Below are positions 23,139 to 29,245 of a stretch of 64,000 nt of DNA, piece by piece (the first letter of the stretch is position 1; each line of letters opens with the position of its first letter). The stretch comes from Cloacibacillus evryensis DSM 19522 (lineage in GTDB: Bacteria > Synergistota > Synergistia > Synergistales > Synergistaceae). The position numbers were made by a program, and so were the translations under genes. The stretch lies in assembly GCF_000585335.1 (NCBI RefSeq), contig NZ_KK073872.1:1-64000 (forward strand). The letters run 5' to 3'. Under the pieces are notes generated by a model. It worked only from the letters and a program-made list of their open reading frames with translations. It was not told the origin of the DNA and did no database searches.

Positions 23139-24806
23139 TTACGCCGTCAACGTGTATTTTTTGAAGGCCTTGTCTATCATCGTCACGCAGAGATACATGC
23201 CGATGATGCCGGCGATGATGTATATCCAGTTGATGTACATGCCGAAGCCGACGGAGATGAGCAGACTGCCGGCCGTTCCGAATACGCAGCCCTTGAGGAC
23301 GCTGTGGTCGATCTCCTGGCCGTGCTCGTTGAATCCGGGAAGCAGCGGCTTCTGCTCGGAGGCGGTGGCGAAGGAGACGCCGGCGATGGCGATCAGCGAA
23401 GCGGCGACGCCCCAGACTATCGGCAGCGGCAGCTTCAGATAAACGCCGGCCGAGCAGGCGAGGCAGCCGGCGACCATTCCCGCGACGCAGCCGGAGCCGG
23501 TGCAGCGCTTCCAGTAGAGGGCGCACATAAAGGGCAGGAACATCATCGACGAGAAGGTGCTGTAGCCGACGGCGACAATTGTAAGTATACCTTTGAACTG
23601 CAGCACGAGCAGCGAGGCGGCCACGGCGATCAGCAGGGTCAGCAGGCGGCAGCAGAAGAGTTTCTGCTTTTCCGTGGTGGTCTCGGGAAGCGCCGGTTCG
23701 ACGATATCCACCATCAGGCAGAGGACGCAGACCTGAAGATAGGAGTCGAGCGTCGAGATGGTAGTGGCAAGGATCGCCGCGACGAAGAGGCCGATGAGGC
23801 CGTGCGGGAGCACTTCGGAGATGAGCGCGAAGAGGACGCCGTCAGTATTCTTTCCGATAATGGCGGGGTCTACGAGCATCGCGGCCCCGAGGCCGAGGAA
23901 GGTGACGACGCCGGCGAAGAGCGTGCAGTAGGCAAAGCCGAGCATACTTCCTTTGACGGAGGTCTTTTCATCTTTGGCGGAGATGAAGCGCTGTACATGG
24001 GTCACGTCGCAGCAGGAGGCGAGCAGGCCGGAGAGCAGGTAGCCGAGCCACCACATGTTCGGCCGTAGCGAGAAGAACTGCGCCGCGTCGAGGGTACTGT
24101 GCATCGCCTGCGGCGTAACGCCGTGCATCAGTATCATCGAACCTGGCAGGACAATGAAGATCATCGGCGTCATTATCAGCCACTGGAAGACGTCGTTGTA
24201 GACGACGGAGACGAGGCCGCCGATGCTGACGTAGGTGAAGGAGACGATGATCCCGATGACGAGCGCCAGCTCATAGGTCATGCCGTATTTGCTGAACATC
24301 AGGTGGATCAGCAGGCCGAGAGCCGCCATCTGGCTGCAAAGTATCGAAAGCGCGAGCCAGGCTCCGGCGACGCCGGAAAGTTTTCTCAGCGCCGGCTTTT
24401 CAAAGCGTGCGACGAAGACGTCGCCGATGCTTGAAATATCCAGCTTATCGGCGCATTTTCTCAGCTTGCGCGCCATGCCGCAGGCGATCGAGAACCACGC
24501 GCCCAGGCTGTAGCACTGTCCCGGGATGAGCGTGCCGCAGCCGTTGACGAATGCGCCGCCGCTGTAGCCGAGCAGCGCGCCGGAGCCCTTCATTGACGCG
24601 CCCTGCGTGCAGAGGGTGGCGAAGACGCCGAAGGATTTTCCGCCGACGAGGAAGCTGTCCGTGCCGGAATCGCCGCCCTTAGCCTTTTTCAGCTCCCTTG
24701 TCTTTTTGCAGCTGAAATATATTCCGTTTCCGATCAATACGCAGAAGTAAAGCACCAAAACTATAATATCCAAACTGTTGGTCCTGAGGTAATCCATTGC
24801 TCCCAT
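23139..24806 (-). CDS. Sodium:solute symporter (SSS family)
   Basis: The 555-aa membrane protein has about 13 predicted helices and SSS-family landmarks: DSFLVGGKSFG in the first loop, FTYVSIGGLVSVVYNDVFQWLIM (about 190-212), and a late helix AAILATTISTLDSYLQVC (about 340-357). SSS carriers use sodium to import amino acids, betaines, sugars or carboxylates. As last gene of the operon with component-B-like reductase genes and an AraC regulator, it probably imports the reductase substrate; that link is inferred. GGGAGGAAG precedes the start. Confidence 0.9.
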   Translation of the reverse strand: MGAMDYLRTNSLDIIVLVLYFCVLIGNGIYFSCKKTRELKKAKGGDSGTDSFLVGGKSFGVFATLCTQGASMKGSGALLGYSGGAFVNGCGTLIPGQCYSLGAWFSIACGMARKLRKCADKLDISSIGDVFVARFEKPALRKLSGVAGAWLALSILCSQMAALGLLIHLMFSKYGMTYELALVIGIIVSFTYVSIGGLVSVVYNDVFQWLIMTPMIFIVLPGSMILMHGVTPQAMHSTLDAAQFFSLRPNMWWLGYLLSGLLASCCDVTHVQRFISAKDEKTSVKGSMLGFAYCTLFAGVVTFLGLGAAMLVDPAIIGKNTDGVLFALISEVLPHGLIGLFVAAILATTISTLDSYLQVCVLCLMVDIVEPALPETTTEKQKLFCCRLLTLLIAVAASLLVLQFKGILTIVAVGYSTFSSMMFLPFMCALYWKRCTGSGCVAGMVAGCLACSAGVYLKLPLPIVWGVAASLIAIAGVSFATASEQKPLLPGFNEHGQEIDHSVLKGCVFGTAGSLLISVGFGMYINWIYIIAGIIGMYLCVTMIDKAFKKYTLTA

Positions 24807-24933: not shown

Positions 24934-25758
24934 CTATTCGCTGACAGTGCGCTGAATGTTTCCGTAGTGCACGGGGTTTACACCCGTGACTTTCAAAAAG
25001 GTCTTTGAAAAATGGCTCTGGTCCGTGAACCCAAGCTCGTACGTTATCTGAAGCAGCGGCATCCCGTCCTCTATCATCTCTTTGGCCTTGTTTATCCGCA
25101 GCTGATTGATGTAGGCGTGGGGCGAAAGCCCGATCTCTTCCTTGAAGAGTCGCATGAGGTAAAAGGGGCTGATGTGGGCGATCTTCGCCAGCTCTTCGAT
25201 GTTGGGCGCGGCGGCGAAGTTATCCTTGAGATACTCTTTAACGGTCAAAATGTGCGGGGACCTCACGAGCATACGCGAGAGCACGAAATCCGGCATACGC
25301 GAGAGCAGCTTCTCGGAGCGGCCGATGATCTCGCCGATGTCGGACTCCGAGCCGGATTCGATGCCGCGCTGTATATTCAGATAGTCTTCCCACATCGTAA
25401 GATCGGAAAAACAGGAGATCGTTAAATTTTCTCTCGCGATGGCCGTCTTGAGCTCGTTCGACAAATATTCTTCCTTCACAAAGACGGTGCGGTACGAACA
25501 GCGGCCCATCTGAGGGGAAAAATTAAAATTATGCGGAACGTCGGGGCCGAGGATGAGAAAATCTCCCGGTTTCAGATCGAGCTTGAACTCGCGGAAATTT
25601 ACCGGCAGAATCCCGTCCTCGACGATGCTTATCGTATACCCGTGGTGCAGATGAGAGGCGGCTCTTTCGGCGGGGAGATTTTCCGCCGTCAAAAAATCCA
25701 TGCCGCGAAGAGATTTCCTCCTCCACAGTCTCCTGACGGGCCTTCTCTTTTCTCTCAT
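24934..25758 (-). CDS. AraC family transcriptional regulator with cupin sensor domain
   Basis: The N-terminal half is an AraC-type cupin sensor (HHGYTISIVEDGILPVNFREFKLDL... PGDFLILGPDVPHNF, about 40-80). The C-terminal half has two helix-turn-helix units: NIEELAKIAHISPFYLMRLFKEEIGLSPHAYI and LLQITYELGFTDQSHFSKTFLKVTGVNP (about 180-265). I start at the ATG at 25758, 7 bases after GGGGGAG; a GTG two codons earlier is possible. Lying between grdB-like and symporter genes, it is probably the substrate-responsive activator of this operon. Confidence 0.9.
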   Translation of the reverse strand: MREKRRPVRRLWRRKSLRGMDFLTAENLPAERAASHLHHGYTISIVEDGILPVNFREFKLDLKPGDFLILGPDVPHNFNFSPQMGRCSYRTVFVKEEYLSNELKTAIARENLTISCFSDLTMWEDYLNIQRGIESGSESDIGEIIGRSEKLLSRMPDFVLSRMLVRSPHILTVKEYLKDNFAAAPNIEELAKIAHISPFYLMRLFKEEIGLSPHAYINQLRINKAKEMIEDGMPLLQITYELGFTDQSHFSKTFLKVTGVNPVHYGNIQRTVSE

Positions 25759-25818
25759 ATGCACTCCCCCTAACGGACACGGCCGCCTGCCGGCGTATTG
25801 TCGCCGGCAGGCGGAATT

Positions 25819-27096
25819 TTATTTTGCAACCCTTTCCAGAGCATTAAGTATTATATTTTTTCGCTCGTTATATTCTGTTTCCCGGTCTTCATTTGGCTTT
25901 GCAAGCGGGTGAGGGATCGATACTCCGTGGACGACTCTGTTGCTTCCGAATGTGTGCGCGATGGGGTCGATGGCCGTGATGTGCGCGCAGGGGATTCCCG
26001 AACGTTCGACTTCCTTTGTTATTGCTGCGCCGCAGCGTGTGCACGATCCTCAGGTGGAGACCATGATCGCGGCGTCGACGCCCGCTTCCTTCAAAGCTCC
26101 GGCGATTCCGCGCCCGAAGGCCTCTCCGTTAAGCAGGGACGCCCCCGTGCCGACCGTCGTGTAGAAGGTCTCGTGCATCTTGCCGATGACGCCCTCCTTT
26201 TCAAGGCCGCGCATCACGTCCACCGGCACGATGCGGTTGGGGTCGGCGTTCGCGAAACTGGTGTCATAACCGCCGTGTATTGAGATTATTTTGCCCGCCT
26301 CAAGCCGCTCGCAGCCCGCGGCGGAGTAAGCGCCGTACTTTGTGGCGGACGAGCTTTCGATCTTGTCCGGATTGCCGGCGGGAACGATGCCGCCGGTGTT
26401 GAGCAGCGCTACCGTGGCCTTGGCAAGATCCTTCACAGGGGGCGCGATCGCGACCTTTTCCGGTATCTCCTGCAAATATTCGGAGACGAAAGGCTCTCCG
26501 CTCATCTTCTTCAGCAGCATGTCGACGGCGCGCTTGCCGCCGTTCTCGGCGCGGAAGAAATTTTTTCTCACATGGCGGTGGAAATAATTTTCAAAGACGG
26601 CGGAGCCGAGCGGCTCTTTCGCGAGAAGCTTCCCGACGAGCGCCGCCATGTCTTCCAGCGCCGGCTTCATCGCCCTTACGGAATTTCCCGTCTTAATTAT
26701 GTACATATCGTCGCGGAACATCTCGACGGCGGGGCTTTCGTTGTTCATTCCGGCTATCCCCGGGATGCCGAGAAGCTCCTGAGCCTTTTTGATGACGTGG
26801 CCGCAGGCGAAGCCGTATCTTCCGGCGTAGAAGGAGGGGCCGGCGATGATGAGATCCGGCTCTTCCCGCGCCAGCACCTCGGCGAAATCCGCGAGGACCT
26901 CGTCCGTATGCTCGGCGAAATAATTGTCTCCGCAGACGTAGGTCATGGAGATGTCGGCCTTGCCGCCGAAAAGCTTTTCTAGCTGCACTCCGGGCCCCAT
27001 CGCGCCGGATACCGCCTTCGGCTCGAAATCTGCCTTGTCCTCCCCGCCGACTCCGGCGAAGAACTGATTGATATAGTGAAGGATTTTATATACCAT
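25819..27096 (-). CDS. Selenoprotein: glycine/sarcosine/betaine reductase component B-like, GrdB type (Sec at UGA 26050-26052)
   Basis: Component B proteins bind an amine substrate and pass it, via selenocysteine, to component A in reductive deamination. Read conventionally, the frame stops at TGA 26050-26052 after 348 residues. Reading through as selenocysteine gives 425 aa, the family length, with IMVST-Sec-GSCTRCGAA at residues 344-357, matching the GrdB active-site pattern. The readthrough frame then runs 76 codons to TAA (25819-25821), with a plausible tail (SGIPCAHITAIDPIAHTFGSNR). A hairpin 13 nt past the UGA could be the SECIS. Substrate (glycine, sarcosine, betaine or another) is not determined; grdA, grdC and grdD are absent. 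The GrdE-like gene lies 15 bp upstream. Confidence 0.93.
26024..26036 (-). promoter_or_regulatory. Candidate bacterial SECIS hairpin
   Basis: In the mRNA, GCUGC and GCAGC pair around a GGC loop, beginning 13 nt after the UGA codon. Bacterial SECIS elements are short hairpins at this distance inside the coding sequence that recruit SelB. The stem is short and GC-rich; flanking bases might extend it. Confidence 0.55.
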
Positions 27097-27111
27097 CCCT
27101 GCGCCCCTCCT

Positions 27112-28419
27112 TTAAATCCAGTCCGCCGACAGGCGGCTGATCCCGGCCTGCGCGCATGAGCAGGGGATGTGGATAAGCTCGGTGTAAAACAGCCCGCTGT
27201 CCTCCGGATGGCTGTCGATGACGGCGCGGATGATATCCATCGAATCCTCGTTGCCGATAAATGTCTCCAGCGCCTTGGGTACGGCGAGGAGCTGGTGCAT
27301 ATTGCCTACGCTCACCATCGCGCCGCACTCCGGGACCCAGTCCGCGAGCCCGGGGCTCCTGCCGTCGCGGCCGCCCATCTCGTCGGAGATGATGACCGTC
27401 TTCACGCCCTCGTCTTCCAGAGCCTTGACGTTGAGCATGATATCTTCGTCAGGATTGCCGTGGCCCTCCGTGACGAGGATCGCGCCGCTTGCGCCCATCA
27501 TCTTCGCGAGCTTCGCCGTAAAGGCGCTGGCGCGGAGCTTACCCTCCATCGTCGTGACCTCGTTATGCACGATGACGCCGAGAAAGCGGACCTTCTTGCC
27601 GTGCTGTTCGTAAAACTCTTCGATCACGGGGCTGTTCTGGACCTCATACATATACTGCTTGTCCGCGCAGACCGTGCAGTGAGCGCCGAGGAACGTCGTC
27701 ACCGCGCCGTCGAGCACCTCGTTGGGATGGACGACGGTCGGTATCAGCGTCGTGCCGGCAAGCTGCCCGTAGACGTGAAAATCGATGATCTCGGGGTTCT
27801 GGGCCAGCAGCTGCATGACATATACGACGCCGGGCAGCCTCTCGTCGGCCTTGCCGAGCTCATACGTCCTGACCTCGTCGGCCCTCGCATCCGAGCAGCT
27901 TTGCGCGAGATAGACGGCGAGGCGGAAAGAGGCGAGGCGGCAGGCTTCATCCGTCGTCAGCGTCTCTTCCTTTAAAACCTCGGGCTTTACGCGGGCGCAG
28001 AGGACGACGTTGAAAGTCTTTGAAAATGGCGAATAAGCCGCGGCCGGTCCGCTCATATCCACCAGCCCGCCCGTTCGGCATTTCGCCTCTTTATCGCCGC
28101 TCTCCGTTACGAGCACGGCGCAGTTCTTCAGCGCGAGAGTCTCTCCGATCCCCGCCTGCTCCATATCTCCCACAATACCAGGGAACATCGATCCCTGCCG
28201 TGAAAGCTTACATCTCGGCTCGACTGCGGCCTTGACCGGCAAGATCCTGACACTCTCCCCCGGGCGCGCAATGTGCAGTGAAAAAGAGGCTACGGCCGGA
28301 AAAACGCCGCAGGCTTGGATCGCCTCTTCCTTGTTCACATAAAGAACGCCGTCGCTGACGGTTGTCTTTTCTCCCCACTCAAGACCCTTGATATACAACT
28401 TATGAAAATCAAGCTTCAC
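27112..28419 (-). CDS. Glycine/sarcosine/betaine reductase component B proprotein, GrdE/GrdG/GrdI-like
   Basis: GrdE-type proproteins are cleaved to give two subunits, one with an N-terminal pyruvoyl group made from a Cys, which forms a Schiff base with the substrate amine. The 435-aa product begins with the family pattern KLYIKGLEWGEKTTVSDGVL, then IARPGESVRI and DMSGPAAAYSPFSKTFNVVL. A conserved HPNEVLDGAVT stretch (231-241) precedes HCTVC; Cys248 or Cys251 is where I would expect processing. The GTG at 28419 has GGGAGGG five bases upstream, better than the longer frame to 28449. It is first in the operon, 15 bp before the selenoprotein gene. Confidence 0.9.
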   Translation of the reverse strand: MKLDFHKLYIKGLEWGEKTTVSDGVLYVNKEEAIQACGVFPAVASFSLHIARPGESVRILPVKAAVEPRCKLSRQGSMFPGIVGDMEQAGIGETLALKNCAVLVTESGDKEAKCRTGGLVDMSGPAAAYSPFSKTFNVVLCARVKPEVLKEETLTTDEACRLASFRLAVYLAQSCSDARADEVRTYELGKADERLPGVVYVMQLLAQNPEIIDFHVYGQLAGTTLIPTVVHPNEVLDGAVTTFLGAHCTVCADKQYMYEVQNSPVIEEFYEQHGKKVRFLGVIVHNEVTTMEGKLRASAFTAKLAKMMGASGAILVTEGHGNPDEDIMLNVKALEDEGVKTVIISDEMGGRDGRSPGLADWVPECGAMVSVGNMHQLLAVPKALETFIGNEDSMDIIRAVIDSHPEDSGLFYTELIHIPCSCAQAGISRLSADWI

Positions 28420-28774
28420 AACGACCCTCCCTTCCCATCCCTTCGCCATGCCGGCGTATGGCGGGAGACGCTTTCATATAAAACTGAGAAAATAATATAT
28501 CGAAGGAACGGCAAGGTCTTGTAAAAAAATGCAATACAGATAAAAATATACGATTTAAATATATTGGCGATTAAAAATCATCACGTAAAACGGTAAATCG
28601 CGGGGTATGATGAACATGCGGACAGACTTTCACTCCCTCGGGCAAAAATATTTTGCGTAAAAAGTATACTGTAAATAATATAAAAAAGGAAGAGAAACTA
28701 TAGTTTCACTTCCCGAATTAAAAAAATACGACGGCAAAAACACCTTCCGGCGGCATCCTAAGAAAACAGAGGAA
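28420..28774. other. Gene-free region: reductase operon promoter area and a terminator
   Basis: The stretch holds AT-rich DNA likely to include the leftward promoter of the reductase operon, and at 28688-28713 a near-perfect palindrome (GGAAG-N-GAAACTATAGTTTC-N-CTTCC). On the minus strand the palindrome is followed by TTTTTT, so it is best read as the terminator of the BFD-like gene. No convincing gene is present. Confidence 0.6.
28688..28713 (-). terminator. Terminator after the BFD-like gene
   Basis: The 12-bp-armed palindrome with one internal mismatch is followed on the minus strand by six T residues, 60 bp after the gene's stop. Its near-perfect symmetry means operator function cannot be excluded. 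Confidence 0.7.
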
Positions 28775-29125
28775 TCAAGCGCCGCACCCCGTACAGCCGC
28801 CGCAGGCGTCGGTGCGCGTGCCGGAACAGCCGTCGGGTTTTGGCTGAGGCTTGCTGTGGCGGCAGCCTCCGCCCTCCGTCATCATCTCATAGACGGGGAG
28901 ATAAATGGAGATGAGGGCCTCGACATTCTCGCGGCAGCCGCGTCCCGAGGGATTGCGCTCCGCGCATTCATTATCCGCACAGAGCGGCGTCGCCTTGGCC
29001 ATCGCCTCATAGCTGTGCGCGCCGTCCATCATCGCGTTGAGGATCATATTCTTCGTCGTGCCAGTGACCGTACAGACGGGCGTGTCAGCCTTCGCGTCGC
29101 GCCAGAGGCTCACCAAGTCTATCAT
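28775..29125 (-). CDS. Small Cys-rich protein, possibly BFD-like [2Fe-2S]
   Basis: The protein is about 116 aa. The middle resembles the helical BFD [2Fe-2S] fold (TPVCTVTGTTKNMILNAMMDGAHSYEAMAKATPLC), but Cys spacing is unusual: VCTV, PLCADNEC, GRGC, then a C-terminal cluster GCSGTRTDACGGCTGCGA. It could carry an iron-sulfur cluster or bind metal. The ATG at 29125 follows AGGAAGGGA at good spacing; upstream in-frame ATGs are less likely. It precedes the reductase operon in the same direction but is separated by a terminator. Confidence 0.55.
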   Translation of the reverse strand: MIDLVSLWRDAKADTPVCTVTGTTKNMILNAMMDGAHSYEAMAKATPLCADNECAERNPSGRGCRENVEALISIYLPVYEMMTEGGGCRHSKPQPKPDGCSGTRTDACGGCTGCGA

Positions 29126-29245
29126 GAAAGTCATTCCCTTCCTGTTTTTATACATTATAGTCCATCGGCGGCGCGGTTGACTCTCGTGAAAAAAGCAGTT
29201 ATAAAACATAAGACTAATATATATGGCCATGGGGAGGCGGATGCG

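Follow-up and report, generated by a model that had tools for sequence, protein, structure and literature searches.

A GrdB-type gene of Cloacibacillus evryensis with a conserved in-frame UGA belongs to a distinct clade

Introduction

One of the questions raised by the start of the Cloacibacillus evryensis DSM 19522 genome is whether a GrdB-type gene that appears to end early encodes a full-length selenoprotein, and, if so, what this protein does. The gene, which we call B', and that of its partner subunit, E', are located in the window, i.e. the whole stretch of 64,000 nucleotides that was analysed. A gene caller that relies on frame alone yields a 348-aa ORF for B', stopping at a TGA. The original prediction was that this codon is read as selenocysteine (Sec). 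Recoding of this kind is textbook material and has been published for the genus. For Cloacibacillus porcorum MFA1, Leong et al. listed eight hypothetical grdB genes, each with a predicted Sec and a SECIS element, together with a complete Sec machinery (PMC10838667). A further case adds little beyond corrected gene models. What is new here is a distinct E'B' clade, with its own gene cluster and with a B' that scores under the glycine, sarcosine and betaine reductase cutoffs; it is this branch, more than the recoding, that matters.

Coding across the in-frame UGA

The B' frame is interrupted by a single TGA (Table 1), with 348 codons before it and 76 after. Read through, the product is MVYKILHYINQ...AAIMVSTUGSCTRCGAAITKEVERSGIP..., with U349 in the active-site string STUGSCTRCGA; the frame, the place of the TGA and the total length are all as originally described.

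Table 1. Features of the E'B' cluster in the window. Paired scores are bits and model cutoff.
Feature	Position	Strand	Basis
Na+/solute symporter, SSS family	23139..24806	minus	PF00474, 122 bits; PutP model, 107/515 bits
AraC-type regulator with cupin-like binding domain	24934..25764	minus	PF12833, 82 bits; PF02311
13-bp palindrome between the B' stop and araC	25783..25814		scan; T-run on the plus-strand side only
B', GrdB-type selenoprotein gene (predicted)	25819..27096	minus	425 aa, Sec349; ATG at 27096, TAA ending at 25819; TIGR01918, PF07355
SECIS-like apical hairpin GCUGC-GGC-GCAGC	26024..26036	minus	conserved position; C-G/U-A covariation
In-frame UGA, predicted selenocysteine, residue 349	26050..26052	minus	aligned relatives; Sec machinery in the genome
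Shine-Dalgarno-like AAAGGAGGGG	27104..27113	minus	read from sequence; ahead of the B' ATG, overlaps the E' stop
E', GrdE/GrdG-like proprotein gene, partner subunit	27112..28449	minus	PF09338, 414 bits
Cys261 codon of E', predicted pyruvoyl-forming (GAHCTVC-ADK)	27667..27669	minus	aligned with GrdE GNCVSAC-DKN

Purifying selection acts as strongly on the codons after the UGA as on the part before it. In a codon comparison with the orthologue from the same-genus genome G137 (81% identical) dN/dS was 0.112 before the UGA and 0.063 after it, and with a second clade member, L010 (also 81% identical), the values were 0.096 and 0.083. In these two closest comparisons the ranges are therefore 0.10-0.11 before and 0.06-0.08 after the UGA. 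Past the UGA the differences from both G137 and L010 fall mostly at third positions (10, 6 and 40 at codon positions 1, 2 and 3 for G137). The frame beyond the UGA is more than chance, and a reading of this part as a pseudogene was rejected on the selection test.

Residue 349 tells the same story. All eight clade members have one TGA, at codon 349, and the 40 residues that follow are nearly perfectly conserved within the clade. The original prediction depended on homologues having Sec or Cys at this position; among 36 aligned relatives 35 have Sec and one, the paralogue L009, has Cys. T348 and G350 are invariant among these relatives, and within the clade an invariant TUG is followed by a CxxC; the UxxCxxC active site of B' consists of U349, C352 and C355. 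In an AlphaFold2 model of B' (mean pLDDT 91, pTM 0.55, with 89-98 for the blocks after the UGA) residue 349 lies inside the C-terminal domain, with a strand (342-346) before it and a helix (350-365) after it. Ending the protein at this strand-helix junction would therefore cost it three C-terminal helices and two strands. Tryptophan as the meaning of the UGA was rejected, as no relative has Trp at 349 and UGA ends other genes.

Could the UGA nevertheless be a true stop, with the frame beyond it a decayed or unused remnant? Ordinary UGA stops do occur elsewhere in the genome, and the hairpin after this UGA is weak in energy. Against this stand the low dN/dS past the UGA, the near-perfect conservation of the next 40 residues, the common position of the TGA throughout the clade and the place of the codon within a folded domain. 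We consider a true stop very improbable, and UGA 26050-26052 is almost certainly read as Sec, a reading that comes from comparative sequence analysis.

Selenocysteine machinery and a SECIS-like hairpin

This reading also calls for selA, selB, selC and selD, and a search of the genome (one contig of 3,488,464 bases) returned everything that defines a Sec-decoding organism. The profile scores were 567 bits for SelA (cutoff 268), 386 for SelB (cutoff 242) and 317 for SelD (cutoff 125). The tRNA-Sec scored 76 bits against a gathering threshold of 47 and was also called by ARAGORN as tRNA-SeC with anticodon tca (UCA). The SelD gene (G000:C1:1728349-1729275) itself has an in-frame TGA.

The short hairpin that had been noticed 13 nt downstream of the UGA is exactly as described, running from 26036 to 26024. 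Hairpins with a GGN triloop occur at the equivalent place in the other TGA-bearing paralogues of the genome, with that of L008 displaced by 1 nt and carrying a 5-nt loop. One stem pair is variable. In 86 distinct sequences it is UA in 75, CG in 6, UG in 2, AU in 1, GU in 1 and unpaired in 1, i.e. paired in 85 of 86, compared with 75.0 expected from shuffles. For an 11-sequence alignment, 27 of 500 shuffles reached the observed covariation score, whereas no slid version did. The number of events behind it is small, since most of the covariation accompanies a single Thr-to-Ala change in the B' clade. For the window sequence alone the folding energy is no better than that of shuffles (z = +1.28), and the Rfam SECIS_4 model (RF01990) matches 26012-26049 at 18.3 bits (E = 8), below its gathering threshold of 38. 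The support for the hairpin is comparative, not energetic. Given the few covariation events, the sub-threshold SECIS_4 match and the unremarkable energy, its status as a SECIS element is plausible, not proven. The original observation at this locus is confirmed, and its interpretation is supported at the level of the protein family.

Family assignment

The name "GrdB-type" holds at the superfamily level and fails if it is shortened to GrdB, GrdF or GrdH. TIGR01918 matches residues 4-421 of B', across the UGA, at 503 bits (cutoff 65), and PF07355 matches up to residue 348 at 462 bits (cutoff 22). B' further has a UxxCxxC near residue 350 and an adjacent GrdE-like gene, the other two marks of the superfamily. 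Its Sec is residue 349 of 425, while that of GrdB from C. sticklandii is residue 350 of 436. However, B' scores far under the curated cutoffs of the named models, with 446 bits against an equivalog cutoff of 602.2 for glycine reductase GrdB (TIGR01917), 505 against 800 for sarcosine reductase GrdF (NF040794) and 471 against 775 for betaine reductase GrdH (NF040795), and for this reason it should carry none of these names. The D-proline reductase model PrdB (TIGR04483) gives 96 bits, cutoff 300.

The nearest named models for both subunits are those of sarcosine reductase, with E' scoring best on NF040793 (GrdG) at 306 of the required 780 bits. GrdF and B' share the place of the Sec and the CxxC after it; the pair differs in its low scores and in the E' processing site, GAHCTVCADKQ rather than GNCVSACDKN. 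PrdA/PrdB have the pyruvoyl and Sec chemistry that is predicted for the window pair, and the C-terminal half of B' is related to PrdB, but the E' score on PrdA is 38 bits (cutoff 700) and the gene set is another one. The fluoroacetate reductase of Cloacibacillus, FarB/FarE (PMC10838667, NF053623), resembles the pair as a divergent protein B with its own transporter that is thought to use the shared GrdA. It is encoded at a separate locus in the genome, FarB has no CxxC and FarE has no Cys site, whereas the window pair keeps both; E' scores 163 bits on FarE (cutoff 675), and B' is not FarB. A phmmer search of the PDB with B' found no relative, and Foldseek with the B' model matched sugar-binding and SIS-domain proteins only weakly; the near-full-length hits had low TM-scores, and these matches were set aside.

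The clade, its gene cluster and its paralogues

TIGR01918 matches eight loci of the genome, and seven of these carry one TGA. In each of the six full-length GrdB-type genes other than B' this TGA is at the place of the B' UGA. L002 is of the glycine type (649 bits, cutoff 602), and L003, which adjoins the only grdA of the genome, reaches 593 of 602 on the same model. L004 scores best on the betaine model (678/775) and lies beside a BCCT transporter gene (633/650 bits). L008 is part of the fluoroacetate reductase locus, where FarE scores 912 bits (cutoff 675) and an MFS transporter is near. L005 (with L112; G000:C1:2648024-2649313, minus strand) is a GrdB-type selenoprotein gene under every named cutoff. 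It is near TRAP-TAXI transporter genes, and the site in its GrdE-like partner is unusual. Beside the fluoroacetate reductase genes is also L009 (G000:C1:1306768-1307484, minus strand), a half-length GrdB C-terminal part with Cys for Sec (TSTCGTSTRCGA), which is either a relic or a separate Cys paralogue.

In the tree B' and L007 (G000:C1:3136775-3138040; 67% identical) fall into one separate clade with support 100/100. At E <= 1e-150 the clade occurs in 5 of 188 Synergistota genomes, with two members each in this genome and G137, and further members in G163, G166 and G009, those of G166 and G009 being L010 and L011 of the contig scan. Among the best 80 loci of that scan only L012 was added to the clade; its contig is short, of low coverage and assigned to Caldisericia. 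No curated model names the substrates of the window pair, L007 and L005.

The order E', B', AraC, SSS is kept in the window and in G137, G166, G009 and G163. The SSS symporter is the likely importer of the substrate, and the palindrome after B' may be a terminator or form a hairpin at the 3' end of E'B'. The cluster of L007 (L111) and its G137 orthologue share AraC and SSS genes with the window cluster, the active site AIMVSTUGSCTRCGAA is common, and B' and E' are 67% and 64% identical between the two. They differ in that two genes of the proline-racemase family accompany the L007 pair, and in that its E' has Asn in place of the first Cys of the site. Upstream of E' the window (28775-29230, minus strand) encodes a small protein that is rich in Cys and gave a weak 2Fe-2S (CopZ N-terminal) match. 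Such a gene is also found 5' of E' in G137 and G166 and is absent at the other clade loci. In G163 the gene directly upstream of E' (L124 3397-4518, G163:C35) resembles, by eye, that of a MobA-like nucleotidyltransferase.

E' aligns with GrdE but carries a 3-residue insertion, and the sequence and spacing of its processing site are altered. The site reads GAHCTVC-ADKQ in the window E', GSHNTVC-SDKQ in L007 and GSHNTVS-SDKQ in L012, against GNCVSAC-DKN in the glycine and sarcosine types; at this place a Cys is lacking in betaine-type L004 and in FarE. In GrdE of C. difficile this Cys becomes a pyruvoyl group (PMC9908766). Seven of the eight clade E' proteins keep it. The exception is L012 (2312-3646), with a Ser (TVS) that may be a sequence error given the low coverage of the contig (3.2x). 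As E' keeps the pyruvoyl-type Cys, the probable substrate of the window pair is an amine, primary or secondary, or an imino acid, and would be able to form an imine.

Proposed function of the E'B' pair

Our best explanation, which as a whole we hold with a probability of roughly 0.85, combines Sec decoding with a protein B role for E'B' in a GrdA and GrdC/GrdD cycle. SelB and tRNA-Sec would decode the UGA, directed by the stem-loop just downstream, to give a 425-residue selenoprotein. The AraC protein would turn the cluster on in the presence of the substrate, which the Na+ symporter would import. E' and B', together forming a substrate-specific protein B, would bind and activate it. Sec349 would then attack the alpha carbon with release of the leaving group, a carboxymethyl-type selenoether would be handed to the single GrdA of the genome, and GrdC/GrdD would release an acyl phosphate for ATP formation. 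That E'B' acts as a protein B feeding GrdA, through a catalytic cycle modelled on its homologues, seems to us probable.

This fits the published model for the genus, in which one common reductase is fed by several protein B complexes (PMC10838667). Besides this genome, with its one copy, GrdA is present in G137, G166 and G009, the remaining clade genomes with a completeness of at least 85%; counting against the model, neither G163 (55% complete) nor the bin holding L012 yielded a GrdA. GrdD is present in this genome, and in L012 grdC-grdD lie directly upstream of the E'B' pair. We also count in favour of the protein B model that other paralogues have their own transporters, e.g. BCCT for L004 and MFS at the FarE locus. 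We see even odds that the window pair and its paralogue form the substrate-binding part of a selenium-dependent reductase that has an altered pyruvoyl-forming site and acts on something other than glycine, sarcosine, betaine, D-proline or fluoroacetate. The protein B types named by Leong et al. are those for glycine, proline, betaine, sarcosine and fluoroacetate (PMC10838667), and their work does not settle the substrate of the E'B' clade. As fluoroacetate reductase illustrates, protein B paralogues of this group can make new electron acceptors available, and the substrate of the window clade, once found, would add to the Stickland-type acceptors of anaerobic Synergistota a new one that can be tested.

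Two other accounts of the pair deserve weighing. E'B' may work like D-proline reductase, with pyruvoyl-E' holding a D-proline-like imino acid, Sec349 cleaving the C-N bond and a product formed free of GrdA, as an electron sink. The sister cluster, with its two racemase genes and PutP-like symporter kept in G137, points this way, as does strain MFA1, for which a "proline" protein B is listed close to a proline racemase (PMC10838667). Moreover, the niche of D-proline reductase could be open, since no PrdA over the cutoff of 700 bits was found in this genome (best 45) or the clade genomes (best 553, in G009). However, the window cluster itself has no racemase, PF05544 genes are present at other places in the genome too, the weak similarity of B' to PrdB is no higher than that of the glycine paralogues, and grdC and grdD stand in line with E'B' in L012. 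On this evidence we find D-proline-type chemistry unlikely. Alternatively, the pair could simply be the diverged sarcosine (GrdF/GrdG), betaine (GrdH/GrdI) or glycine reductase of the organism, as might be suggested by the sarcosine models scoring highest for both subunits. These scores are far under the cutoffs, though, and the genome has better candidates for glycine (L002) and betaine (L004, with its BCCT transporter). The separate clade and the insertion and altered processing site of E' argue against this account as well, and we give it a slightly smaller chance than the D-proline-type one.

A point against the protein B model is that the two racemase-family genes suggest a chiral substrate for the L007 cluster, whose pathway need not end in acetyl phosphate. 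Both proteins keep the Cys of MCGHG and of CGTGTS, which we take to be the motifs that hold the two Cys expected in the family. An N-terminal DSHTC/DTHTS motif was considered as the source of the catalytic Cys and was dropped, as the expected Cys are present. The proline-racemase family includes members with Cys/Cys, Ser/Cys and Ser/Thr pairs (PMC4113996).
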